DNA of 34,296 nt from a virus: positions 1-34,296 of IMG/VR virus record IMGVR_UViG_3300035689_000052; one strand, 5' to 3'. The stretch's first letter is position 1; each line of letters starts with the position of its first letter. The notes below the pieces were generated by a model that searched no databases, was not told the origin of the DNA, and worked only from the letters and a program-made list of their open reading frames with translations. This document shows positions 4,843-17,052 of the stretch, in pieces. The position numbers and the translations under genes were made by a program.

Positions 4843-5156
4843 GCCGCCTTTATCCCAAATGGGTTATGCCACAACACCGGTGCTTTAGGCTTACGCGGCT
4901 TAAAGGTCTTGTACTGCTCCTTAACTTCAAAGTAGTTCACTATCACTTTCTTCCAAGGTATTTCAACGTCTTTTATCCCCTTAGACTTCACAATCAAATC
5001 ATCCCCCGCCATTTCGGTCATGAGTTGATCAATTCTCTTGGTGGTCATATCAAACTTTGCCGCCAAATGCCAAGCATTAACAGGGTTCTTCAATCCTTTT
5101 AGGTAATCAAAAATCATCTTTTTGCTTTCTGATCTACGCATTTTTCGTTTTGCCAT
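4839..5156 (-). CDS. Small winged-helix-like DNA-binding protein
   Basis: 105 residues, strongly basic at both ends (MAKRKMRRSESKK; FKPRKPKAPV). Residues 13-60 look like a winged helix: IFDYLKGLKNPVNAWHLAAK, then FDMTTKRIDQLMTEMAGDDLI. This resembles MarR/ArsR-type HTH modules found in small phage regulators. It probably binds DNA and may regulate late genes or help the terminase encoded next to it (inference). ATG 5156 has GAGGGG upstream. Confidence 0.55.
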   Translation of the reverse strand: MAKRKMRRSESKKMIFDYLKGLKNPVNAWHLAAKFDMTTKRIDQLMTEMAGDDLIVKSKGIKDVEIPWKKVIVNYFEVKEQYKTFKPRKPKAPVLWHNPFGIKAA

Positions 5157-5171
5157 TTCTACCCCTCTCGA

Positions 5172-6596
5172 TTAAACAACTGCCCTTAAGTTCCTTTTAA
5201 TTGGCTTGCCCCACTGCGAGTTGTAAGCCTTACCGTACAACGCTGTTCCCGCATCGCTGGCAAAGGTCAACGCCAAAGCATCAGCCATGTCAGGCGATCC
5301 AATCCCGCGCTTTCTCATCTCGTCTTTGCTCTCTAGCTTCATCTTACCGTTGCTATTAAACGAATAACGCGGCGAGACAAGTTCCGCCAAAAGCGACTCA
5401 TCTTTAGGAATCTTGCAGTCGCGCTTTTCCAACCACGCCTTCATCTTGCCCCACAGCTCGGCACGCAAGTTCACATAAATCGTTCCCATGGCGGGTGACT
5501 CAGCCACGTTAATCCCACGCGCAGGCAGATTCAATTCGCGCAAGCGGTCCACAACACCGGCCCCCAAGCCAATCGAATCGACAAGTATTTCAACAGGCCT
5601 GTCTTCTGGCTTCATGGCCTCGTACTCAGCGACCACCGCGCCCGTGGTCTGCATCAAGTCCAACCCACGCCACTTGCGTATCTCAGTCACCGCATTACCT
5701 TTACGCTTTGCCAACGCCGTTGCGTCCGTTCCAAATCGCGCCACATCCAACCCCCACACCGTTTGCGTATCCGTCGTTTCAACGTCACGGTGAAAAGCAC
5801 TGTCCACCAGCTCAACACCAATCAAGGTATCGTCATCGGTACGCGGAAACTCGCCCAAGACGCGAACACGAAAAGCGTTGGACTCTTCGCCATAGCGTGA
5901 CGCCATATCCTTGATATAGGCGTCGCTAACCCTTTTAGAGTCATAGCAGGACACGCGACGTGTCCACCACTCATCCTTTAATCGGTTATGCGTGTCAAAG
6001 AAAAACCCGCTGGACTTCGTTGGGTTCCCCAACAAAATCGTCACAGCGTTATGCCCTGACATGGAACCCGCTGCCGCCTCAAACACGGACTCAGGAATTC
6101 CCGACGCTTCATCCGCCACAAGCATCACATGGTCCGAATGCACACCTTGCAATGCTTCAGGTTGCTCGGCACGCGATGTTCGGGCGGAGATGAACGCTTC
6201 CGTGGGCGATGACTTCAACTCAATCCGATCCGTTTTCGGATCAAGCAACTGCCGCCACACATCAGGCAATTCCTTGACCCAACGCTTCAACTCAGCAAAC
6301 AGTGCGTCATACAACTGGCTTGTCGTTGGCGCTGTCACCACCACTTTCACCGGATAGCGGCAAAGCACAAACCAAATCATTGCCCATGACGCAGCGGTCG
6401 ATTTACCCACACCGTGGCCTGACCTTACGCTGATCTTTCGCTCGCCATCCGATATAGCCTGCAAAAACTCAACCTGCCAAACATCAGGCTCAACGCCAAT
6501 CACTTCACGCACAAATAACGGTGCGTTGTTCGCGTACCGATCCAAGGCACGCGCAAACAACTTCACCAACTCATGATTCTTTAACTCTTCATTCAC
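5172..6596 (-). CDS. terL: Terminase large subunit (TerL)
   Basis: DNA-packaging motor and headful nuclease. Walker A SGHGVGKST (about residues 59-67), adenine/motor segment VVVTAPTTSQLYDALF, Walker B VMLVADEAS with catalytic Glu (about 157-165), coupling motif LLGNPTKSSG. The RNase H-fold nuclease follows with GLDVARFGTD, a second acid in LVDSIGLGAGV and a third in SPDMADALALT. All motor and nuclease acids are present, so the enzyme looks intact (474 residues, normal length). GTG 6596 is chosen because AAAGG lies about 9 nt upstream and it overlaps the recombinase stop; a TTG at 6614 would add six residues. Confidence 0.95.
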   Translation of the reverse strand: MNEELKNHELVKLFARALDRYANNAPLFVREVIGVEPDVWQVEFLQAISDGERKISVRSGHGVGKSTAASWAMIWFVLCRYPVKVVVTAPTTSQLYDALFAELKRWVKELPDVWRQLLDPKTDRIELKSSPTEAFISARTSRAEQPEALQGVHSDHVMLVADEASGIPESVFEAAAGSMSGHNAVTILLGNPTKSSGFFFDTHNRLKDEWWTRRVSCYDSKRVSDAYIKDMASRYGEESNAFRVRVLGEFPRTDDDTLIGVELVDSAFHRDVETTDTQTVWGLDVARFGTDATALAKRKGNAVTEIRKWRGLDLMQTTGAVVAEYEAMKPEDRPVEILVDSIGLGAGVVDRLRELNLPARGINVAESPAMGTIYVNLRAELWGKMKAWLEKRDCKIPKDESLLAELVSPRYSFNSNGKMKLESKDEMRKRGIGSPDMADALALTFASDAGTALYGKAYNSQWGKPIKRNLRAVV

Positions 6597-7245
6597 GTCC
6601 AAGCACCTTTGCAACGCCAGCGTGTGTAATCGTCACGCCATGCAATTTCATCACCTCACCGGCAATCTGACGCAACGACATGGACCCCTTCAAAGCCTTA
6701 ATCGTTGCAATGGCGGCTTGCTGCTCGGCAACGGGCTCAAGGGTTGCTGCCTTGCCAGTACCTACAACGCGAAACCCAAAAGGCGGCAACCCACCAACGT
6801 GCCCGCCAGCCTGACGCTTTGCCGCCTGGCCTACGCGCTGGCGATCCTTAATCACTCGCCTTTCGTGCGTTGCAAATGCCGCCATAATCTCAAGCATCAA
6901 CTGCCCATAAATATTCTTTTCATCCGTTACATCACCATGCCCATTGATGATCAACCGAATACCTAGCTCCTTGAACGCGTGAACGGTATTCAACGTGTCC
7001 ATCGAATTGCGGCTAAAACGATCCAGTTTCGCCACAATGATCACATCACCAGGTTGTGGCGTCACACCGTTTGCCGCCAATCGATCAAGAAAATTCAAAT
7101 GCCCCGAAACGCCAGCGTCTTCAATAAACCGATCAACCGTCAAGCCATGCGTTAAAGCGTTGCCAGTGACTTCCCTGCGTTGCGTGTCAAGGCTTGTGCC
7201 ATTGGCTTGCTCGTCAGTGCTTACGCGCAAATAACCGTAGTTCAT
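6589..7245 (-). CDS. Serine recombinase (resolvase/invertase family)
   Basis: 218 residues. N-terminal catalytic domain with MNYGYLRVSTDEQ (nucleophile Ser9), the arginine-bearing VAKLDRFSRNSMDTL, and EIMAAFATHERRVIKDRQRVG of the long helix. A short C-terminal DNA-binding region follows: GGLPPFGF and an HTH-like SLRQIAGEVMKLHGVTITHA. The size matches small resolvases/invertases rather than large phage integrases. ATG 7245 overlaps the stop of a 27-residue gene as ATGA; an upstream TTG at 7257 is less likely. It could resolve multimers, invert a segment or mobilise itself. No invertible segment or att sites are evident. Confidence 0.92.
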   Translation of the reverse strand: MNYGYLRVSTDEQANGTSLDTQRREVTGNALTHGLTVDRFIEDAGVSGHLNFLDRLAANGVTPQPGDVIIVAKLDRFSRNSMDTLNTVHAFKELGIRLIINGHGDVTDEKNIYGQLMLEIMAAFATHERRVIKDRQRVGQAAKRQAGGHVGGLPPFGFRVVGTGKAATLEPVAEQQAAIATIKALKGSMSLRQIAGEVMKLHGVTITHAGVAKVLGRE

Positions 7246-7325
7246 AACGCCATCCAAATCATCGTTGCGTACAGAGCGCCAAACATTGCGCCGCCAATGA
7301 TCAATGTTGCTGTTGTGGACTTCAT
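7242..7325 (-). CDS. 27-residue single-pass membrane peptide
   Basis: ATG 7325 with AGGA 7 nt upstream; the TGA overlaps the recombinase ATG (ATGA). After a Lys near the start, nearly all residues are hydrophobic (ATLIIGGAMFGALYATMIWM), enough for one membrane helix. Such tiny peptides are often missed. Function unknown; it may simply couple translation into the recombinase gene. Confidence 0.5.
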   Translation of the reverse strand: MKSTTATLIIGGAMFGALYATMIWMAL

Positions 7326-7946: not shown

Positions 7947-8534
7947 TTACCCGTTGTGCGGCGCAACATCGATGGTTTTGTCATCGACGTTTACGGCGTT
8001 TACGGTTTCTCGGTATCGATTCGCCATCAGGTGCGCGTCAGTAATGTTCACCTGAACGTTCACTTGCGCCTTGTTCTCTCCATACGCTTGCTGGTTCCAC
8101 TTGCCAGCGAGCCATTGACGGTACTTCGATTGAATGTTCGCTAAGTTCGCCGTTTGTGGCGTTGCGTTATCGACAATCTCCAAACCTTGCTCGGCCAAAC
8201 GATGCGCGGCCAGCTCGCGTGCGTGCGCGAGGGCGCGGCTGCGCTCCGGCGCCTTTTCCGCCCACGCGTAAAATTCAATCGTTGTGACCTCCATTTCCTT
8301 GGCGATATGCGTAATCGGCTTACCGTCCGCGATCAACGCAAACACAGTTTCCGGCCCGCCAAATTGATGAACAATCTTGTTAACCCTCGCCGCTATATCG
8401 CGTTTGCGCTGATTGCTTAGACTATCCACCGCGCCACGCGCTTCACGCACCGCGCCTTCTTCGCTTTCCGCCTCACCAGTACCGCTCAAACGCGTCAGAT
8501 CGCCCTCAGTTCGATTTTCTGCTTCCATGTTCAC
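7947..8534 (-). CDS. terS: Terminase small subunit (TerS), Sf6/P22-type
   Basis: 195 residues. Acidic, disordered N-terminus (to about 45), then an HTH-like region (IADGKPITHIAKEMEVTTIE, FYAWAEKAPERSRALAHARE), a helical segment (LAEQGLEIVDNATPQTANLA, YRQWLAGKWNQQAYG) and a beta-rich tail (KAQVNVQVNI). This order matches Sf6/P22-like TerS, which form a ring, bind the pac site and feed DNA to TerL. GTG 8534 lies 7 nt after AAAGG; ATG 8528 is the alternative. It is separated from terL by about 1.3 kb holding two small genes and a serine recombinase. Confidence 0.8.
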   Translation of the reverse strand: MNMEAENRTEGDLTRLSGTGEAESEEGAVREARGAVDSLSNQRKRDIAARVNKIVHQFGGPETVFALIADGKPITHIAKEMEVTTIEFYAWAEKAPERSRALAHARELAAHRLAEQGLEIVDNATPQTANLANIQSKYRQWLAGKWNQQAYGENKAQVNVQVNITDAHLMANRYRETVNAVNVDDKTIDVAPHNG

Positions 8535-9194
8535 TCACTTACCTTTCGCTTGTTCCATCGCCTCTAACGCGCTTTTGCTCAACGCGTAAGCCTGTTCACT
8601 GCTTCCCTTGTACACCGGACCAATATCCTCTTCCGCCATAAGCGTCAACACCTCAGCACCAGGCATTGCCCGTTTAATGCTTACCGCCTGCGTAAAAAAC
8701 TCCTGCTGCAAGATGATCGCCACCTCATCCATCGTCCAGCAGTCGCACTCAGGTCTCATTGCCGCGTAGGCGTGGACAGTTGCCGGATCAGCGCAAATCG
8801 CAAACACGCTCCCGTCATCCCGCTGACCCTCCATAACGCTTACCGACAACGGTTGAGCGTTCATCGCTTTAGCTTCAGCCTCCAACACGTCAAACGCACG
8901 CATCATTCCGCCACACGCTGACCTGTACGCCTCAACGTCTCTCGCTTTCCGCGCATCTCTACACCGCCATAACTGCTTCCAAAACCGCAATCGCGTTTCC
9001 TCGCTCACAAGTTCCGCCAAACGATCTAATCCCCAAACCTTATCCGCCTCACGTTTCCTCTTCATCACACTGACCGCCACACTATTCATCGCCAACACAA
9101 TCAAATCATCCTCTTCAAAAGGATTCTTCAACCGATCCTCTGATCCGCCATACAAACCATCTCTTACCTTTCCGCGCTTATCTTTTGCCGCCAT
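8535..9194 (-). CDS. Conserved hypothetical protein upstream of terS
   Basis: 219 residues, no domain recognised. The first third is charged and helical (KNPFEEDDLIVLAMNSVAVS; RKREADKVWGLDRLAELVSE). The middle has VFAICADPATVHAYAAMRPE followed by CDCW, and the end is helical. The first gene after the repeat-rich 9195-9509 region, its stop lies three bases from the terS GTG, so it is likely co-expressed with the packaging genes and may assist packaging. ATG 9194 has AAAGGA about 10 nt upstream. Confidence 0.55.
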   Translation of the reverse strand: MAAKDKRGKVRDGLYGGSEDRLKNPFEEDDLIVLAMNSVAVSVMKRKREADKVWGLDRLAELVSEETRLRFWKQLWRCRDARKARDVEAYRSACGGMMRAFDVLEAEAKAMNAQPLSVSVMEGQRDDGSVFAICADPATVHAYAAMRPECDCWTMDEVAIILQQEFFTQAVSIKRAMPGAEVLTLMAEEDIGPVYKGSSEQAYALSKSALEAMEQAKGK

Positions 9195-9234
9195 AACCCA
9201 AATCCTTTCTCTTTACGCTTTCCACTTCAATCAC

Positions 9235-9508
9235 CGTCCGGAACATTTCAGCGTCCGAATTGTGTGTCTTTCAGACACACACACAATTCGGACGTTATGA
9301 AATTTTGTTCGATGGCGTTTTCGGACAACTAAGGACGCATTTTCGGACGCTTTTAGGACACTTAACATGACTTTAGGACGTTTCATTTCGGACGATTTGA
9401 TGCTTCAAAAATCACTTTCGGACACAATCCGGACGCTAACCCTGTTTTTGCCTACTTTTTAGGCATTTCTTGATGTTTTGGCGGCAAACCCGGACGCACT
9501 TTCGGACG
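9235..9508. repeat. Iteron-like array, 13 copies of a TTTCGGACG-type motif
   Basis: Exact TTTCGGACG at 9341, 9386 and 9500; TTTCGGACA at 9319 and 9416; variants at 9287 (A for first T), 9329 and 9372 (A in the core), 9352, 9428 and 9489; reversed copies at 9235 and 9252. Eleven point one way, two the other. GGAC cores on the plus strand fall at 9290, 9323, 9333, 9345, 9356, 9376, 9390, 9420, 9431, 9492 and 9504, so steps are 33, 10, 12, 11, 20, 14, 30, 11, 61 and 12: mostly near whole helical turns. Confidence 0.75.
9252..9294. repeat. Long inverted repeat with iteron arms
   Basis: Bases 9252-9267 pair perfectly with 9279-9294 (16 pairs) around an 11-base loop. The inner GT/CA tract allows an alternative register with a three-base loop and a four-base bulge. 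The outer arms are two opposed copies of the repeat motif (CGTCCGAA / TTCGGACG). No T-run follows on either strand, so it is not a standard terminator. Confidence 0.8.
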
Positions 9509-9509
9509 C

Positions 9510-11573
9510 CTAAAAACCTTCTTCGTTAATCGGTTTGATCCACACTAGATCGTTTCTTATGGCGGCAAACTCAAGCTCAACTAATTTGTCCTTCACTTCC
9601 TTCCAACGCTTCCTCTTATCGCTTTCCTCCACATCGTTCCCTAGCCTGGCGTACACCTCATCCCGCCAACGCTCTAACGTCACCACGCGATGGCGTTCAC
9701 CCTGAACAATCTGGTATTGCCCTTCCGTCTTCACAATATGGCGGAGCGCTTCCCTGCCCATCGACTGATGCTTACCGCGTCCTGAGTTCGGCTTTGCGTT
9801 TTGTGGCGGTCTAAAGCCAACGCCATCGGGTAACTCACCCTCGAAAGGTTTGACCACTAGCGTATTGGCTAAGTCATCCTCGAATCCCAGGTTGAGCTTG
9901 GCGGCTGATGTTTCGTTCGTTTCCTGCTGATCAAAGTTCACTGATTCCATCGAGAAATGAATCTCCACACCGTCCTTGCCATCCTTTTGCTTCGTCACTT
10001 TGAGCGTGCCTGACATTTGATCGGTATGGCGGGTAATCTCAATCTGCGTGTCCACAGCACCTAAAAAGCTAGAGTGACCGCGTAGACCTAATGAGGCGTC
10101 CTTACCTGAATGGTGGACAACTAAGAGCGCTGCGCCAGTGGCTTCCTGCAAGCGTCCACAATTGCTGATGAAACTGCCCATGTCCTCTGACGCGTTCTCG
10201 TTGCCGCCGCCAAAGGCGCGGGCTAAGGTGTCAATGATGATCAATTTCGGACGCTGGATTTCGGACGCTCGTATGGCGGCTATCAAGTCAGCAAAATCCT
10301 GATCTGATGATCGTAGGTTAACTTGCGACCTGATCACGCCAACGGGTATGTCCTTGAGTTCATACGCGTGGCGTAAACCAGAAATCCTTGTCCCAATACC
10401 GCCATGGCCTTCGCCTGCGATGTATAAGACCTCACCGGCTTGCGGCACTTCGTGCGCCAGCCACGAATCCCCACTAGCGATCATGGCGGCTAAGTGCAGC
10501 GCGATAAACGATTTGAACGTGCCTGGTGGGCCATAGAGCGCCATGAATCCCTTCTCCGGGACAATCCTATCCACCAACCACTTAACAGGCTCATCCTTCG
10601 CGTCACGCCACATCTCAACCCTGTAGCGTTGCGCTTCCTGCGCTTCAACAACTTCGGCAAACGGTTCCTTCTCCGGCACAACGGATTCGGGTTCCGTCTC
10701 TGCTTTCTCATCAATCACTAGTCGTTGTGGCGGCACAACGTCCTCGAAATCCTCAATCACTTTAGCGTCGGCAACGCGCCTGGCGAATTCCTCAAATGTG
10801 AACCCTCGCCCGATAAACTCTTCAGCGTCATCGCCAATCGCTGACTCGTCATCGGCTAAATCAACCACCTTGATCGCTTGCGCTACACCTTGCAAGTCCC
10901 TAACGACACGTTTGGCGTACTTCCAGCCAGGTCTATCGTTATCGGGTAGAACTACTACCAATCGACCATGAAACCATGGCGTGATGGCGGCAGGCCACTC
11001 GCTCGACCCCGCGTGCGCCGATATGGCGACCACATCGAACATGCCAACCAAAAACTCTGCGGCCTTTTCGCCCTCGGTCACGAATACCGGCGCCATGGGT
11101 CTTGCGATCATGAGCGGTAAGCCGAACGGTATGGGCGTCCAGTTGCGGATCGTTGGTACGCGCTCGCCATTGATAAGGTGATATTGGCGGTACGTCTTAC
11201 CGCCACCTTCAACGTCATACCTGACTTTTTGTGCCGTGACTTCACCGTTCTCATCGATGTAGTCCCACGCCATCACTTCTTTCATCGTTGGCGGCACAAT
11301 CGGCCTAATACCCGATAACGGATCACGCGCAACTAATGGGCGGTTCCAGTTCAGCGAATTAGGCAAGTGCGGCTTGATGGCGGCAAACACATCCTCCTGA
11401 TCGCACCCGCCAAAGCACTTAAAGAGAAACTTCTCACCGACTTGCGTAATCGCCAATGATGGATGCCGATCACCCTTGCCATTACCATGCCCAGGTACCG
11501 GGCAAGACGCAAGCCACCCCCTCTTGTAACGCTTGGCGTTACCAAGCGCTGCGGCTAATAGTTCTGCGTTCAT
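9510..11573 (-). CDS. Primase-helicase: Zn finger, TOPRIM and RepA-like RecA ATPase
   Basis: 687 residues. Order: zinc-binding C24-x4-H29 ... C53-x3-C57 (ASCPVPGHG, FKCFGGC); TOPRIM with VTEGEKAAEFL (166-170 acids) and LPDND (211-213); an acidic linker (about 275-315); a RecA/AAA_25 motor with Walker A GPPGTFKS (348-355), Walker B LIIID (444-448) and VVHHSGKD (485-492); then a helical C-terminal region. Known families with this architecture prime and unwind phage DNA (T7 gp4 and P4/RepA-like lineages). It should be the main replication protein. The stop at 9510 abuts the iteron array. ATG 11573 overlaps the upstream stop as ATGA. Confidence 0.9.
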   Translation of the reverse strand: MNAELLAAALGNAKRYKRGWLASCPVPGHGNGKGDRHPSLAITQVGEKFLFKCFGGCDQEDVFAAIKPHLPNSLNWNRPLVARDPLSGIRPIVPPTMKEVMAWDYIDENGEVTAQKVRYDVEGGGKTYRQYHLINGERVPTIRNWTPIPFGLPLMIARPMAPVFVTEGEKAAEFLVGMFDVVAISAHAGSSEWPAAITPWFHGRLVVVLPDNDRPGWKYAKRVVRDLQGVAQAIKVVDLADDESAIGDDAEEFIGRGFTFEEFARRVADAKVIEDFEDVVPPQRLVIDEKAETEPESVVPEKEPFAEVVEAQEAQRYRVEMWRDAKDEPVKWLVDRIVPEKGFMALYGPPGTFKSFIALHLAAMIASGDSWLAHEVPQAGEVLYIAGEGHGGIGTRISGLRHAYELKDIPVGVIRSQVNLRSSDQDFADLIAAIRASEIQRPKLIIIDTLARAFGGGNENASEDMGSFISNCGRLQEATGAALLVVHHSGKDASLGLRGHSSFLGAVDTQIEITRHTDQMSGTLKVTKQKDGKDGVEIHFSMESVNFDQQETNETSAAKLNLGFEDDLANTLVVKPFEGELPDGVGFRPPQNAKPNSGRGKHQSMGREALRHIVKTEGQYQIVQGERHRVVTLERWRDEVYARLGNDVEESDKRKRWKEVKDKLVELEFAAIRNDLVWIKPINEEGF
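10245..10267. repeat. Two further TTTCGGACG copies inside the primase-helicase gene
   Basis: Two exact copies 14 bases apart (10245-10253 and 10259-10267), same orientation as the main array, about 750 bases away. They lie in the codons just before Walker B, so chance codon use is possible. Confidence 0.6.
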
Positions 11574-12226
11574 CTAGGCGCCGCCGGATTGCCTTGCAGC
11601 ACAATGCCTTCGTGCTTTGGTCCTTTGAAGTCATGGCGGACAATGGACCCCGCTGAAATCTTCACGCGATTGGCGATTTGCTTACCCGGAAGCACATAAG
11701 ATCCAATACCCATGATCACCGCCACGCCAATCACGCAATCGCCGCACACTTCCGTATTCGGAAACATCGTTGTCCATCCATGAATCACCGAGTCATGCCC
11801 AACCGTTGCGTTCGTATTCATAAATACAAAATCGTTAATCCAGGCATCCGCCGTAACGATCACTTGCGGTGCTAACACGCACCCTTTGCCAATGCGAGCG
11901 TATGGCGAGACCGTGGCAGTGCGGTGGATATACGTCCCCCATCTTTCCTCGTTCTCAACAACAATCGCTTGCTTTGCATCGGGGTCCGCCACAGCAAGCA
12001 AGAATTCAGCACCAGGAAACGCGCCCTCTCGGATGCTTTCCACCACGGGATACTTGGCGGCATAGCGCTTGCTGTTAAACGGTTGCGTTGAAACCACGCA
12101 CACAATCTCGTGCGTACCTTCCTCCTCGATGTAGCCAATCAATTCCTTGGCAAGCCCTCCTGAACCAAAGATGACGTACTGGTTTTTGCGCTTTGCCTTT
12201 TGATACATGTTGTGATCGCCGCTCAT
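11570..12226 (-). CDS. NeuD/PglD-family sugar acyltransferase (left-handed beta-helix)
   Basis: 218 residues. An N-terminal Rossmann-like half (YVIFGSGGLAKELIGYIEEE, residues 17-36; FLLAVADPDAKQAIV) binds the nucleotide sugar. The C-terminal half has hexapeptide repeats of a left-handed beta-helix (HRTATVSPYARIGKGCVLAP, NTNATVGHDSVIHGWTTMFP, VAVIMGIGSYVLPG) ending GIVLQGNPA. This is the layout of NeuD/PglD enzymes, which acetylate sialic acid or 4-amino sugars from acetyl-CoA. A catalytic-type His is present in GHDSVIH. Located between the primase-helicase and a DegT-like aminotransferase further up, it could N-acylate the aminosugar. ATG 12226 follows GGGAGA. Confidence 0.85.
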   Translation of the reverse strand: MSGDHNMYQKAKRKNQYVIFGSGGLAKELIGYIEEEGTHEIVCVVSTQPFNSKRYAAKYPVVESIREGAFPGAEFLLAVADPDAKQAIVVENEERWGTYIHRTATVSPYARIGKGCVLAPQVIVTADAWINDFVFMNTNATVGHDSVIHGWTTMFPNTEVCGDCVIGVAVIMGIGSYVLPGKQIANRVKISAGSIVRHDFKGPKHEGIVLQGNPAAPR

Positions 12227-12591
12227 GTGTTCTTCTCCCTTAGCTTGGCTTCGATGGCTTTACCGAATGCTTTGATACCGTAATTACTGCCATGCTGATA
12301 AAGATACTTATCTGCATAGTCATGTATCTCCTCATCCGTCAGCCCAACCCATTCAGCAGCCTTTGGTGGTGCGGTGTAGATGGTCTGCCAATTAACTTCC
12401 TTTGAAGTACCAATTTGGCTCGTGTCGTTGGCATAAACCCATCCATCGGCAACAGTCCAACACACCGGCTCTTGCTCTGTCTCCAGTGCTTGGCGCAGGG
12501 CTTTAACGGCATCGTCAAACATTTGAACGCTGCTTTTGCTTTGGTACAACTCCAGCGCTTCTAGCGCCACCTGCATAGCTTTTCTGCTCAT
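12223..12591 (-). CDS. Conserved phage hypothetical protein (MSRKAMQVALEALE type)
   Basis: 122 residues. Starts MSRKAMQVALEALELYQS, followed by DAVKALRQALETEQEPVCW, an opening I know from many small phage proteins without a known function; the C-terminal half (EEIHDYADKYLY, FGKAIEAKLREKN) is helical. The last codons also supply the ribosome site (GGGAGA) for the acyltransferase. The N-terminus and C-terminus are mirrored by the 36-residue gene at 12871-12981. ATG 12591 follows AGGAGAG and overlaps the upstream stop. Confidence 0.65.
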   Translation of the reverse strand: MSRKAMQVALEALELYQSKSSVQMFDDAVKALRQALETEQEPVCWTVADGWVYANDTSQIGTSKEVNWQTIYTAPPKAAEWVGLTDEEIHDYADKYLYQHGSNYGIKAFGKAIEAKLREKNT

Positions 12592-12878
12592 GATTTCTCT
12601 CCTGTTGCCTTGGCGATGGCAGCGCTGGCTTGATCGATTAGCGCCAAGTAATGGCCGTGTTCCGGGAGCCGTGCAATGCGTTCTGCAAGCGCCAGCAGAT
12701 CGGGAGCGGCGGCGATCAGGCGAGCGTTGGCTTCTGATTCAATTGCACCGTAGCGTCCTTCTTCATCTTGCGTTCCCACGATGAATCCTTCTTTCGGTGC
12801 GTAGACCGTGAAGCCTTGACGGACTGCTGGATCAACAACCCACGGCCCCGGTGTGTGTTTCATAGCTTCTCTATCCAT
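12588..12878 (-). CDS. Conserved small phage protein (HTPGPW / ANARLIAAAPDLL family)
   Basis: 96 residues. MKHTPGPWVVDPAVRQG at the N-terminus and SEANARLIAAAPDLLALAER at residues 51-70 are the signature of a very common accessory protein of phages and prophages; its function is unknown. ATG 12878 is chosen because AAGGAGAAG lies 5 nt upstream and HTPGPW is normally close to the N-terminus. A longer frame to 12974 exists but only adds sequence that belongs to the overlapping 36-residue gene. Confidence 0.75.
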   Translation of the reverse strand: MDREAMKHTPGPWVVDPAVRQGFTVYAPKEGFIVGTQDEEGRYGAIESEANARLIAAAPDLLALAERIARLPEHGHYLALIDQASAAIAKATGEKS

Positions 12879-12981
12879 GATTCTTCTCCTTGAGTTTGGC
12901 TTCGACTTTACGGAGCAATACATAGGCATACCGTTTAAACCGAGCAACCAGCAGCGCCATCTGCATAGCTTCACGGCTCAT
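12871..12981 (-). CDS. 36-residue collapsed paralogue of the 122-residue protein
   Basis: ATG 12981 overlaps the aminotransferase stop as ATGA and the TAG ends at 12871, overlapping the next gene. The product begins MSREAMQMAL and ends VEAKLKEKNHG, matching the start (MSRKAMQVAL) and end (IEAKLREKNT) of the 122-residue protein at 12223-12591, with the middle absent. The codons at the end carry the AAGGAGAA ribosome site of the next gene, just as the longer copy does for its neighbour. It looks like a duplicate that lost about 85 codons in frame. Confidence 0.6.
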   Translation of the reverse strand: MSREAMQMALLVARFKRYAYVLLRKVEAKLKEKNHG

Positions 12982-13619
12982 TTGTCACTCCCAAACGCGT
13001 AAACAGGAAACTTGGATAAATCCGGATAGCTCATCTCAATATCCTCCATGACCTTTGGCGATCCATCACGATCCCAAAACTGATTCATGAGCAACAGACC
13101 ACGCGCTGCTACATCCGGCATCATGTAAAAGTTCCAGCCGATCATGTCGAAATGATCGTCGTGATAGGAACACTCGCGCCGCCCGCTGAAACGCGCCCGC
13201 TTGAACCACAGCATGGCGGCATAGTCATCAGTAAGAATCGCACCGCCCTTGCCTAGCTTTAGGTGCTTATAAGGCCCGGTGAACGACACGCACATGTGCG
13301 AGCCTTTGATATACATGTTGGTGGTAAACGATAGCGCAGCATCCCACACACGCGTCGGTGCTAATTGATACGCGCCCTTAATTGTTCTTCCTTCAACCGG
13401 ATAAAAGTCAACCTTCGCACCGGCATGAATCACTTCGCAAGGCACGCCTGGGTAAGTTCTTGCGGGCAACCTGATCGTCGTTCCCGCCACACGTTCATAG
13501 GTCAGCGCTAAGAACAATGCGTTGCAGCAGTTATCGACCGCCACACAGTATGGTGCGCCTGTGTACTCAGCAACCTTTTCTTCAAACGATTCCGTTATTT
13601 TGTAAACGCCCTCTGCCAT
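12978..13619 (-). CDS. Short DegT/DnrJ-like PLP-dependent sugar aminotransferase
   Basis: 213 residues. Has CVAVDNCCNALFLALTY (PLP phosphate-binding region), TIRLPARTYPGVPCEVIHAG, WDAALSF with D93 expected to contact the PLP ring nitrogen, and SFTGPYKHLKLGKGGAILTD with K118 as the Schiff-base lysine. The family converts 4- or 3-keto nucleotide sugars to amino sugars. Typical members have about 370 residues; here most of the C-terminal small domain is missing although the frame is clean. It may be a minimal enzyme, need a partner, or be decaying. ATG 13619 follows AAGGGGATG. Confidence 0.78.
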   Translation of the reverse strand: MAEGVYKITESFEEKVAEYTGAPYCVAVDNCCNALFLALTYERVAGTTIRLPARTYPGVPCEVIHAGAKVDFYPVEGRTIKGAYQLAPTRVWDAALSFTTNMYIKGSHMCVSFTGPYKHLKLGKGGAILTDDYAAMLWFKRARFSGRRECSYHDDHFDMIGWNFYMMPDVAARGLLLMNQFWDRDGSPKVMEDIEMSYPDLSKFPVYAFGSDK

Positions 13620-13639
13620 ATCATCCCCTTGAGAGTCAA

Positions 13640-13667
13640 AAAATCCCGGCCTAAAAAGACCGGGTTT
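13640..13667 (-). terminator. Intrinsic terminator after the SSB-like gene
   Basis: On the minus strand CCCGG, a ten-base loop with a T5 tract, then CCGGG and a T6 run. The stem lies 19 bases after the stop at 13685. A T4 run after the stem on the plus strand makes it partly bidirectional. It would reduce read-through into the aminotransferase, which then depends on partial read-through or its own promoter. Confidence 0.7.
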
Positions 13668-13684
13668 TGTGAATAAGTGATTAC

Positions 13685-14221
13685 TTAAAACTCTTCACCT
13701 TTTGCGGGCGCAGGTGCCACCGGTTCCGGCGCAGCAACAGGCGCACTGCCTGCATCATCCGCTGGCCTCGGTGCCCAACCCGTGATATTCCACTTAGGCT
13801 TGCGCGTGTTGCCTTTGCCAACCTTCATGGCCTCAGCGCCCACATACTCGATGATCGGCAACTTGCCAGCGTTCGCATTGCGATTTTTGGCGGCTGCCGT
13901 GTAAAGTGCTTCCAGCCCCATGTTTGGCCCTGCGCCATTGCTTGACCACTCGACCCATCCCATCTCGCGGCTAAAGAAACGCACAACGAACCCGCGCTTA
14001 TGCGCATCGCTTGGCTTCGGTCCTTGCCTGCCTAACTCTTGATCGGGTTGCCAATCACGCACACCGGCTTCAAGTAACAGCCAACCCGTTTGCACGTTAT
14101 CAATGTCAAACAACATTTTTTTTAATTGGATTTCCTGCCCCGTCTTGTCGCTCCACATATTCATGGACGGCGAAAAACGAATGTAGGGAAGTCCTGATCC
14201 ACCACCTGTAAGTCCTAGCAT
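13685..14221 (-). CDS. Probable single-stranded DNA-binding protein
   Basis: 178 residues. An OB-type mixed beta core seems likely (YIRFSPSMNMWSDKTGQEI; GWLLLEAGVRDWQPDQELG; GFVVRFFSREMGWVEWSSNG). A Pro/Ala-rich flexible tail (about 152-174) ends in an acidic and aromatic tip, KGEEF. Such a tail is typical of phage SSBs that recruit partners. It precedes nothing but a terminator and follows a Cas4/RecB-like exonuclease, a usual pairing of recombination genes. No family is certain by eye. ATG 14221 has AGGAAA about 10 nt upstream. Confidence 0.5.
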   Translation of the reverse strand: MLGLTGGGSGLPYIRFSPSMNMWSDKTGQEIQLKKMLFDIDNVQTGWLLLEAGVRDWQPDQELGRQGPKPSDAHKRGFVVRFFSREMGWVEWSSNGAGPNMGLEALYTAAAKNRNANAGKLPIIEYVGAEAMKVGKGNTRKPKWNITGWAPRPADDAGSAPVAAPEPVAPAPAKGEEF

Positions 14222-14237
14222 GTCAAAGTTTCCTATT

Positions 14238-15308
14238 TCAAAGTGAGGTCAAATTTGGCGCTGGTTTGCGCCCAAGTGTTAAACCACTTGATTCAGCGGT
14301 GACCTTATCCGCGAATTCTTGATAAAGATTTGGGTATTTCTTTTCTAACTGCGCTGGCGTGATCGGTATTGTTTTCACGGCACCTTTGTGCGCACTAAGC
14401 AATCCCGCCATCAGCTCATCGCTTTGCCACTTGCGCGTTGCGCGTTTCGGTATAAGCGTCCAATCATTGAGTTGGCGTCCATCCTCCAATGCTTTCGTGA
14501 TGCGCTCTTTGATCGCTTCAATCGTATGTGCCGCATCATCCGCCATGTTCATCATGGCGTTCAATTCATCTTCCGTAGCTTCATCAACTTGCTTTTGCGC
14601 GACACCAGCAAACGATTCGACGCGTGCAATCTTGGCAGGACACTTTGATCTAGCCGGACACCACCGGCAGTGCTCGCCTTCATTGGTTGGTGGAAATGGT
14701 GCCAGCGTGTCACGCAACGCCGGTTCAAACACATTGGCGGACCAATCAATGAGTTCGGCTTTTGTCATAAACGCCAGACTGATCTGCGGTTCCTGCGTTG
14801 GCTGAATGATCGCAAGCGTAATATTCTTCACGCTTGCCGGCGCCTTTTGCAGTGCGCCTAACGCGTAAATCTTAAGTTGCGGACCCTCAACATCAACCTT
14901 GATGCGGCCTGTTTTAAGGTCTCCAACAACCAGATCAGTATCATTAAAGCAAATAAGATCGGCAGTCCCGTACACATCAGCGCCAGCGTAATTAGGAATC
15001 CTAAGACGCTCCTCGATAACGCAAGCACTTTCCATGCGCTTTTCCAGTTCGCCCGCAAAGTCCGTATAGACCTCGGCCCAAGACGCCATCTCTTCGCTAA
15101 TCGCAACACCTTCAAATTCCTTTCCAACAAACGTATGCGGTGCTGATCCTGTCAGCATCACTGTTTCCGCCAATGCGTGTACCGCTGTTCCAATCTTTGC
15201 AGCCTCTCCTGCTTCGCGTGGCGGCACGCCTCGTGAGAGTTTGATTGATGCTGGACACGCTATCCATCGCTCGGCGGATGATGGTGACCATTCTGAATGT
15301 GCGTTCAT
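14238..15308 (-). CDS. Cas4/RecB-like exonuclease (DUF2800), PD-(D/E)XK fold
   Basis: 356 residues. WSPSSAERWIACPAS with C18, then GTAVHALAE with H44, GTADLIC with D117, VVGDLKTGR with D130 and K132, and the cluster HCRWCPARSKCP with C214, C217 and C223. These are the RecB-family nuclease motifs plus the four cysteines that hold a 4Fe-4S cluster in Cas4/AddB-type enzymes. It should degrade or resect DNA ends for recombination or host DNA breakdown. All metal-binding residues are present. ATG 15308 has GAGGAAA upstream and overlaps the HNH gene stop. Confidence 0.88.
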   Translation of the reverse strand: MNAHSEWSPSSAERWIACPASIKLSRGVPPREAGEAAKIGTAVHALAETVMLTGSAPHTFVGKEFEGVAISEEMASWAEVYTDFAGELEKRMESACVIEERLRIPNYAGADVYGTADLICFNDTDLVVGDLKTGRIKVDVEGPQLKIYALGALQKAPASVKNITLAIIQPTQEPQISLAFMTKAELIDWSANVFEPALRDTLAPFPPTNEGEHCRWCPARSKCPAKIARVESFAGVAQKQVDEATEDELNAMMNMADDAAHTIEAIKERITKALEDGRQLNDWTLIPKRATRKWQSDELMAGLLSAHKGAVKTIPITPAQLEKKYPNLYQEFADKVTAESSGLTLGRKPAPNLTSL

Positions 15309-15691
15309 GTTTTTTTCCTCTTGTGCTTCAGTTTATGTTTTTTACGTTTTAGCTTGCGCTCTTCGTAATGCAAGATGCGATGGCAGTTTGAACAGACAGC
15401 AATGCACTTTTTTATTTCCTCAAATGCTTTTCTGAAAGACCCTGCCGTAACAAGCGCATTGATGTTTCGCTTTGGCGGCGTTCGATCAACGTGGTGAAAG
15501 TCAATGACCGCTTCGTGCTGTATGCCGCACCGCTCGCAATGAAGTGATGCTTTGAATGCTCGCCACTTTGCACGCAACACGCGTTTTGACTCAACACTTT
15601 TCTTAATGGTTTTTTCGCGGTTTTGCTCGTAATAACGCTTGGCGTAAATCTTTTGCTTCGCAGCCTTAGTCTTCGGGTCTTTGTACGGCAA
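15305..15691 (-). CDS. HNH endonuclease (TTG start) with Lys-rich tail
   Basis: 128 residues from TTG 15691. Start evidence: GGAGA 8-9 nt upstream, and the product then begins MPYKDPKTKAAKQK, the usual opening of this HNH family. The zinc-HNH core is CERCG (C52, C55), AVIDFHHVDR (H66-H67), and AVCSNCHRILHYE (C100, C103, H104). The C-terminus is a run of Lys/Arg/His. It overlaps the acetyltransferase by 26 bases and the exonuclease by 4. Likely a homing-type nuclease, or a nicking partner in replication or packaging. Confidence 0.8.
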   Translation of the reverse strand: MPYKDPKTKAAKQKIYAKRYYEQNREKTIKKSVESKRVLRAKWRAFKASLHCERCGIQHEAVIDFHHVDRTPPKRNINALVTAGSFRKAFEEIKKCIAVCSNCHRILHYEERKLKRKKHKLKHKRKKT

Positions 15692-16109
15692 GCGATTTTC
15701 TCCAGTACAAAGTGTTGGGCAACCCCCAAGGATCGTCCGGGTCGAACATCCTGAATCCTGTGGCAATTAGCGCATTGGCGGACGCCACATTGTCGGTCGT
15801 GTCCGTGATTGCTTGCGTCATCCCCAAGTCCTTGGCGAACTTTAAGCGCTCTCGGATCAACTTCTTTTGCAGCCCCCGGCCACGAAACGCTTCCAGCGTA
15901 CCAGCCCTCGCAAGGTATACAGCTTCCGGTATTTTGCTTGATTGCAGCATGGCGGCAAATCCCGCCAACCGTCCATCGCAATAGGCAATCCACCACCAAC
16001 CGTTTTTCGGACTTAGTACCGTGTCCAATGGCAAGCACTCTTTCTGAAGAAATCGTATGGCTTGCTCGGTAGTCTGTGACATTTCTGTCGCCCGCTTGAT
16101 CCGAAACAT
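15666..16109 (-). CDS. GNAT-family N-acetyltransferase
   Basis: 147 residues. WWWIAYCDGRLAGFAAML forms the central strands, ARAGTLEAFRGRGLQKKL (about residues 68-84) is the acetyl-CoA pyrophosphate-binding R-G-x-G-type loop, and VASANALIATGFRMFDPDD is the typical final helix-strand. It transfers an acetyl group from acetyl-CoA to an amine. Substrate unknown: an amino sugar, a modified base or a protein are all reasonable given the neighbours. ATG 16109 has GAGGA 6 nt upstream. Confidence 0.85.
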   Translation of the reverse strand: MFRIKRATEMSQTTEQAIRFLQKECLPLDTVLSPKNGWWWIAYCDGRLAGFAAMLQSSKIPEAVYLARAGTLEAFRGRGLQKKLIRERLKFAKDLGMTQAITDTTDNVASANALIATGFRMFDPDDPWGLPNTLYWRKSLAVQRPED

Positions 16110-16138
16110 GAAGCATCCTCGTGAACCCCATGATTATG

Positions 16139-16372
16139 CTATAAGTTTTGTGTCGAATCAACGAAACGCTCAATCACCCAAGTGCGCATCCACAAGGGGC
16201 GCATGGTTTGTTTGGCGTGCCGCTCTTCAAGCCATGTTGTTGTCCTTGTAATGCCGCCAGGTGCAACCCAATAGTGGGGTTTAATGTAATGCGGCACATA
16301 AGGTATACCCTCAAGCATGTATACGGGCATGGGATGCAATTCTGCTTTCTTGTCAGTGTTGTTAATGTTCAT
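16139..16372 (-). CDS. 77-residue hypothetical protein
   Basis: No family recognised. Aromatic and proline-rich centre (MPVYMLEGIPYVPHYIKPHY), then WVAPGGITRTTTWLEERHAK. ATG 16372 is chosen because it overlaps the glycosyltransferase stop as ATGA with AAGGC upstream; ATG 16384 would add four residues without a ribosome site. It follows a pair of glycosyltransferases and may be an accessory of that group. Confidence 0.5.
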   Translation of the reverse strand: MNINNTDKKAELHPMPVYMLEGIPYVPHYIKPHYWVAPGGITRTTTWLEERHAKQTMRPLWMRTWVIERFVDSTQNL

Positions 16373-17052
16373 TTGCCTTGCCATTTATCTAAGTAACGCT
16401 GCGCTGATTCTTTCCACGTCGGACCCATCAAGCCTTGACTGTGATGAATAGCGGAAATCGATGACACATAAATCGACAGTTCCTTTGCTGTGAATTGGCG
16501 GCAAATGTCCATGTCGTAATGATGAAAGGTGAATTGCTCATCAAACCTTATATCGTTGTCATGGAAGGTTTTTGAGTAAGCCGCCATGAACAAGCCATCA
16601 ATCAATTTCACTTCACTGTTAGGCGATGCAAACACATCCCAATTCGTCATGTACTCACCGTTGCCACGCGCTACGCAACCGGCCCATGATTGGCGATCCG
16701 ATAACGTGCCTTCCATATCCGTAATGGCCCATGACGTTTGACCTGGTGATGGCTGACAGTTACCCGCCAAGCCAACCAGGTGATGATCATCGAGTGACGC
16801 GCCTAAGCGCATGTACCAGTACCAATCGACAATCTCAACGTCATCATGCACAAACACGAGTAACGCCGGATCATTCTTGGCGGCTTCAATCGCTTCGTTA
16901 TAGCGTTGGCACAACCCTGCTGTGTTGTTCGTGAATAGTTGCGCTTCAATAAACGACAGATGCGCAAAGCGTTGAATCGTTACGCCTAACGGCGTTCCTG
17001 CAAAGTCCTTCCTGTTATGGCGAGTACACGCCACGATTCGTATCGGAATCAT
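16369..17052 (-). CDS. Glycosyltransferase, StrF-like GT-A
   Basis: 227 residues. IRIVACTRHNRKDFAGTPLG at the start, LCQRYNEAIEAAKND, then LLVFVHDDVEIVDWYWY with the metal-binding D70-D71, and LIDGLFMAAYSKTFHDNDIR with DEQFTFHHYDMDICRQ as the acceptor-side block. This is the pattern of the StrF/GT2-like family that handles nucleotide sugars. The stop overlaps the 77-residue gene and ATG 17052 overlaps the next glycosyltransferase, so the two are a translationally coupled pair. Confidence 0.82.
   Translation of the reverse strand: MIPIRIVACTRHNRKDFAGTPLGVTIQRFAHLSFIEAQLFTNNTAGLCQRYNEAIEAAKNDPALLVFVHDDVEIVDWYWYMRLGASLDDHHLVGLAGNCQPSPGQTSWAITDMEGTLSDRQSWAGCVARGNGEYMTNWDVFASPNSEVKLIDGLFMAAYSKTFHDNDIRFDEQFTFHHYDMDICRQFTAKELSIYVSSISAIHHSQGLMGPTWKESAQRYLDKWQGK

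Follow-up and report, generated by a model that had tools for sequence, protein, structure and literature searches.

The repeat array and its neighbouring genes

The window analysed here is an IMG/VR virus record of 34,296 bases, in which all assigned genes lie on the minus strand. At the 3' end of a gene for a 687-aa primase-helicase, a gap of 315 nt carries short repeats and a stem-loop. The features at this junction are the following:

9195-9509, no strand: proposed replication origin, the entire intergenic gap from the primase-helicase stop to the next start codon; the array is present in all relatives with a complete gap
9286-9508, minus strand: 11 direct iterons, with GTCC cores on the minus strand
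9252-9294, minus strand: stem-loop (GTCCGAATTGTGTGTGTGTCTGAAAGACACACAATTCGGAC plus one outer pair) with 21-nt arms, from the fold, shuffles and paired changes in relatives
9252-9260, plus strand: inverted iteron 1 (core 9253-9256), the second arm of the hairpin
9235-9243, plus strand: inverted iteron 2 (core 9236-9239), kept in nearly all relatives
9510-11573, minus strand: primase-helicase, proposed initiator, 687 aa, from Pfam AAA_25, PHROGs primase/helicase families, a PDB match and structure models
9534-9776, minus strand: C-terminal winged helix, proposed iteron-binding domain, approximately residues 600-680, from an AlphaFold model
9576-9626, minus strand: helix 3, proposed recognition helix, residues 650-666, carrying K655 and K658; limits from structure models
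8535-9194, minus strand: downstream gene, 219 aa, starting ATGGCGGCAAA, conserved beside the array

An earlier note on this DNA had claimed 11 repeats in one direction and two in the other within the 315-base gap, and a recount of 9195-9509 bore out both numbers: the plus strand has 11 copies of GGAC (GTCC in the coding direction) and two of GTCC. The direct GTCC cores on the minus strand lie at 9504-9507, 9492-9495, 9431-9434, 9420-9423, 9390-9393, 9376-9379, 9356-9359, 9345-9348, 9333-9336, 9323-9326, and 9290-9293. Quantification of TTTCGGACG, allowing up to one mismatch, revealed 16 copies in the whole window (8.6 expected), 9 of which fall inside the gap (approximately 0.08 expected there). 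The repeats are therefore real, but the label "TTTCGGACG-type" under which they were first described spans variants; the invariant core is GTCC, and the usual form in the coding direction is GCGTCC[G/T]AAA. Likewise, the spacing, initially described as close to whole helical turns, proved to be loosely helical, with steps between direct copies of 10, 11, 11, 12, 12, 14, 20, 30, 33, and 61 nt and steps onward to the inverted copies of 37 and 17 nt; in relatives, the steps group at 10-12, 14-15, 19-22, and 29-33 nt. It had also been noticed that outside the array the exact 9-mer occurs only as a pair within the primase-helicase gene, and this holds, with 3 of its 5 window copies in the gap and 2 in the gene. 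The in-gene pair (GCGTCCGAAA; 10245-10267; copies 14 nt apart) translates as ..RASEIQRPK..; relatives at approximately 78% identity or more retain it with small changes, and at approximately 65% it is absent. Since it encodes a protein segment and is retained only where the protein is conserved, we rejected it as a second site, regarding it as a coding coincidence that probably lies outside the array proper.

A turning point of the cumulative GC skew at the array, suggested earlier as a check, did not appear: the skew showed no change of sign, and the third-position skew was likewise without a switch. Because all assigned window genes are on the minus strand, GC skew is uninformative either way. 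An AT-rich melting region common to all arrays was not identified.

The first reading of the sequence had missed the stem-loop, in which the last direct iteron makes up one outer arm and the first inverted iteron the other. Its DNA fold (-18.9 kcal/mol; z -7.2) is the strongest local fold of the gap and was equalled by none of 200 shuffles. A stricter automated test accepted only a perfect stem confined to the space between opposed iterons; it gave weak results for several phages, the window included, because the stems extend into the iterons.

The primase-helicase consists of an N-terminal Cys/His zinc-type motif, a primase region, a RepA/AAA_25 helicase (residues 322-493; Pfam AAA_25, E 4e-42), and a C-terminal winged helix. 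The zinc and TOPRIM parts are putative assignments from the sequence and from PHROGs and NCBIfam matches, as opposed to a Pfam TOPRIM match. In a phmmer comparison the protein matched RepA of RSF1010 (PDB 1g8y) with an E of ~2e-7 (1.9e-7). AlphaFold modelled the full-length protein poorly (mean pLDDT 52), and the C-terminal part was therefore predicted separately; the model of the C-terminal ~100 residues has the order H-b-b-H-H-b-b and a pLDDT of 79-89 in the core. VIA-align matched it with winged-helix domains of ORC, with CRP, and with MukF (Z 7.5-9); P4 alpha was absent among the matches listed, and Foldseek returned no match at E ≤ 0.001. The winged helix is thus predicted from its topology and from the VIA-align Z, which may reflect a common arrangement. 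A search of genome contigs with the primase-helicase found no relative, and hence no prophage or host; a nucleotide search of phage sequences with the helicase region gave no match. For the 219-aa downstream protein there was no Pfam, PHROGs, or NCBIfam match and no match in isolated phages. We identified no phage DNA polymerase in the window, in which several large ORFs are without assignment.

Iterons change in step with the winged helix

In scans of viral contigs the primase-helicase turned up at 74 loci, for the most part with 63-100% identity, and the downstream gene at 60; the relatives are metagenomic fragments. The array is kept in every close relative with a complete gap (198-350 nt long), with 7-12 copies of GTCC and 1-3 copies of GGAC. 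Where relatives are mosaic, the array's left portion goes with the type of primase-helicase while the type of the downstream gene varies. The stem-loop is almost invariant in close relatives, and the changes that do occur mostly hit both arms: gaatt/aattc in the window is ggatt/aatcc in two relatives (L018 and L012), and in a third (L063) the stem is largely different.

An alignment search reached loci that are 40-42% identical over the full protein, and a second search widened this ~41% clade (356 relatives, 80 kept), of which 48 distinct members were analysed. Arrays are present at the same junction here as well, as the earlier note had proposed to look for in relatives, and among the close relatives with a complete gap no case of the same gene order without repeats turned up. 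The arrays of the clade fall into seven motif classes (GTTACA, GTAACA, GGGAACA, GAGACA, GCGACA, ATCGGAA, and ATCAGAA), the counts of which are not counts of independent evolutionary events. In two relatives (L318 and L290) the primase-helicase reading frame continues through the iteron array, so that the repeats form a coding tail.

We compared the motif class with 380 variable protein columns by mutual information in the 48 members. The top two columns were residues 655 and 658 (window numbering), which sit three apart and both on helix 3, and all top-ranking columns are C-terminal. The difference in motif was related to distance in the winged helix with N-terminal distance held constant (partial r = 0.55; reached by 0 of 999 permutations), whereas its simple correlation with N-terminal distance was 0.07. 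Natural swaps show the same pattern in single pairs. L276 and L310 share 98% identity across residues 1-540 but 35% in the winged helix, and their different iterons, GTTACA and GAGACA, surround an identical hairpin core; for L303 and L313 the corresponding identities are 94% and 22%, with GAGACA in one and ATCGGAA in the other.

Part of this association could be linked inheritance, since the winged-helix codons adjoin the array, and the C-terminal clustering of the top columns is also what linkage to the adjacent array alone would give. Linkage alone is argued against by the top rank of the helix-3 columns and by the hairpin, which is constant within the changed region; a peak of informative columns inside helix 3 is what recognition of the iterons would predict.

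The hairpin core of the ~41% clade, CGAGAGTC..GACTCG, is constant whatever the iteron class. The base pair just beyond the core is C-G in 23 members, T-A in 17, and A-T in 6, and is broken in none; the stretches for these counts were picked by hand, and the survey of the strongest hairpin of each gap in distant phages (below) is the unbiased version. The inverted iteron past the hairpin matches the class of the direct iterons in 46 of 46, with the short match in three GAGACA members also fitting GCGACA.

Related layouts in distant phages and known replicons

Homologues of the helicase are present in 1,232 records of isolated phages, none of which covers 80% of the query in one place. Isolated phages at approximately 25% identity also have arrays in this place, namely Rhizobium phages 16-3, X2_25, and N65, Roseobacter phages CRP-831 and CRP-823, and Alteromonas phage PB15. 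The anatomy common to these and to the arrays of the relatives above is one of direct iterons followed by a stem-loop that has an inverted iteron pair as its cap. The first three distant arrays were found by eye, and a sliding-window score was then run on 20 loci. For 10 of them, the window included, no short repeats within ~11 kb were packed more densely than those at the 3' end of the helicase gene. Most of the distant arrays have a motif of their own (for example GTATAAA, CTACAAA, GGCGGAGA, GCGTGACA, TGGTTCA, GGGGACA, TGGGACA, and AGTTGGC), with 16-3 and X2_25 sharing one; the array of Salicola phage CGphi29 is weak. The iteron-framed hairpin is the strongest of the gap in 8 of the 10 arrays, beating all 40 shuffled gaps, the exceptions being N65 and WOVitA1. 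The C-terminus of the 16-3 protein is visibly similar to that of the window protein, and its motif is related (GCGTGACAAA, compared with GCGTCCGAAA in the window).

The other 10 of the 20 superfamily loci have no top-scoring array 3' of the gene. Many of these have a different domain make-up, and they include actinophages with a nearby DNA polymerase I gene, and BFK20. In BFK20 (L186), the densest local repeat is GTTCCAGA-like (13 hits, ~10000-10250) and falls in the gene annotated as gp39, at a distance of ~3.9 kb downstream from the RepA-like gene. A Caudoviricetes record (MW202711; L181) has a RepA gene without a 3' array; a TGAACGTGCGTCC-like repeat, which contains GCGTCC like the window motif, lies within the gene (~4925-5175), in the linker before the helicase domain.

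Several known replicons offer parallels. In the pri-rep-ori modules of phage-inducible chromosomal islands (PICIs; SaPI and Gram-negative), ori lies immediately 3' of rep, two iteron sets frame the presumed opening site, and initiator and primase are fused in some cases; this layout has been described as found in no other known bacterial elements (PMC6092414). The likeness to the window, where the gap (9195-9509) starts immediately after the stop codon at 9510, is one of position only. PICI iterons flank an AT-rich region, whereas the opposed iterons of the window and its relatives flank a stem-loop, and the window is a phage with head, tail, and terminase genes and not a satellite; the two are likened here by layout.

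In P4, the alpha protein unites a primase of bacterial type with a helicase and with a winged helix by which it binds repeats at the origin (PMC4234260), much as primase, helicase, and predicted winged helix are united in the window protein. The window helicase differs in being of the RepA/AAA_25 type, and no combination of an array just 3' of the gene and a hairpin capped by iterons is described for P4 in the same source. At oriV of RSF1010 (IncQ), the iterons are bound by RepC, RepA does the unwinding, and RepB' starts primers at the short stem-loops ssiA and ssiB (PMC4234260). Here the helicase is homologous (PDB 1g8y) and iterons are combined with a stem-loop, but three separate proteins do what would fall to one 687-aa protein in the window, the primase type differs, and the ssi hairpins are not described as iteron-capped in that source.

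The archaeal plasmid pRN1 has a stem-loop just 3' of ORF904 that is experimentally required as origin, is conserved more in structure than in sequence, and functions when moved away from transcription (PMC4234260). ORF904 likewise holds primase, helicase, and a C-terminal winged helix in one replication protein, and the window-type stem-loop also lies 3' of the replication gene, with pairing kept (C-G/T-A/A-T 23/17/6) while the sequence varies. In contrast to the window, with its iterons and AAA_25/RepA helicase, pRN1 has a Prim-Pol primase, an SF3 helicase, and a stem-loop of ~100 nt without iterons.

In lambdoid phages, the DNA-binding domain of the O initiator and the ori iterons form an exchangeable specificity pair, and the window would resemble them in pairing the DNA-binding domain of a proposed initiator with iterons that appear swappable. 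It differs in that lambda has its iterons within the O gene, whose product is no primase-helicase. In the open-access literature searched, we found no description of an iteron-capped hairpin in phages. The parts are known separately, and what appears to be new is their combination in a phage with an iteron-capped hairpin and natural swaps of specificity.

A candidate origin and its adjacent proposed initiator

We consider it very probable that the array is a replication origin directly 3' of the gene for its own initiator, with the winged helix of the primase-helicase binding the iterons and the hairpin serving loading or priming. An origin recognised by the fused primase-helicase was among the readings offered in the earlier note, and the comparative evidence now strongly favours it over an unknown initiator and over operators, since arrays lie at the same junction in relatives, the motif class tracks the recognition helix, and distant phages have arrays 3' of the gene. 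The proposed origin is, in our best reading by analogy, like those of P4 alpha, PICI pri-rep-ori, and RSF1010 oriV combined.

In the mechanism that we propose, the winged helix would bind the direct iterons via helix 3, and this binding would collect several copies of the primase-helicase at the array. The gathered copies would let the RepA-type helicase domain load and open the DNA at or near the hairpin; the stem-loop, framed by the inverted iteron pair, would be the site of melting, loading, or first priming for the constant primase/helicase portion. There, the primase part may lay the first primer, which a host polymerase would elongate. The comparison of relatives establishes the array, its constant position, the change of its motif together with the winged helix, and the conserved capped hairpin. 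From these we infer that the protein binds the iterons, that the gap acts as an origin, that the helicase is loaded and primers are made at the hairpin, and that a host polymerase extends them; each step is credible given its analogues in pRN1, RSF1010, P4, and PICIs.

It is unlikely that the repeats are operators, through which a regulator (possibly the primase-helicase winged helix) would govern transcription of the downstream and terminase genes instead of replication. The genes for the 219-aa protein and the small terminase subunit do follow shortly downstream of the array, winged helices of CRP-like fold bind operators, and one protein could both initiate replication and regulate transcription, with the repeats perhaps acting as operators in addition. 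Against this, a search limited to sigma-70-like promoters found none at 8400-10400, and the motif class tracks the recognition helix of the primase-helicase. Moreover, the arrays accompany the helicase gene also in phages whose next annotated gene points the opposite way (N65, and 16-3, where p102 overlaps a forward gene), and operators would leave the conserved capped hairpin with no obvious role.

The chances are considerably lower still for a packaging site (pac or cos) that the small terminase subunit would recognise, as the counterpart array of phage 16-3 lies ~3.6 kb away from the annotated cohesive end (cos). Repeats upstream of terS are known at packaging sites, and a terS match (7947-8534) has its gene start ~0.7 kb downstream of the array. 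Contigs of 4 of 58 complete relatives end within 100 nt of the hairpin (1.7 expected), but this excess is small and hairpins or mosaic junctions also break assemblies. The motif class tracks the winged helix of the primase-helicase, in a covariation analysis computed for that protein, and the left part of the array in mosaic relatives goes with the primase-helicase type as the downstream gene type changes. The least probable reading, by a small step, is an RNA element in which transcribed repeats and hairpin act in the mRNA as terminator, processing site, or protein-binding leader, for although the gap is probably transcribed along with the flanking genes and the hairpin has paired changes, the window hairpin is without a following T-run in the coding direction (the sole terminator-like site reported being elsewhere, on the plus strand) and iterons of both orientations on both sides of the hairpin change in concert, which suits a site in double-stranded DNA.

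Returning to the proposed origin and its adjacent initiator, we suggest, as a possibility that falls somewhat short of probable, that winged helix and iterons form an exchangeable cassette of replication specificity. Phages would swap it repeatedly while the hairpin and the remainder of the initiator stay the same, perhaps as a way of escaping competitors, satellites, or plasmids whose iterons titrate or block the initiator. If so, the hairpin would be a constant loading module, and one rule (recognition helix and iterons swapped, hairpin kept) could cover the origins of many otherwise unrelated phages. Iteron-dependent inhibition of lambda replication hints at such conflict (PMC3349717), and if swapping reflects conflict with parasites or competing phages, replication specificity would be a further arena of phage competition. 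Few environmental phages have a known origin, and here a candidate origin can be read from sequence together with its likely binder, to the level of two residues in the proposed recognition helix. Pairs that differ by a natural swap could serve as ready matched protein-DNA combinations for deriving a recognition code, and a layout comparable to the PICI 3' origin is now seen in several phage groups.

Other genes of the window deserve mention. Among the replication genes lie genes for a hexapeptide acyltransferase (11570-12226), a DegT-like aminotransferase (12978-13619; a partial family-profile match), a GNAT acetyltransferase (15666-16109), and a glycosyltransferase (16369-17052), so that the genes at 11570-17052 look like a sugar-modification cluster. 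A serine recombinase of 222 aa is encoded at 6589-7257, between the genes for the small and large terminase subunits.
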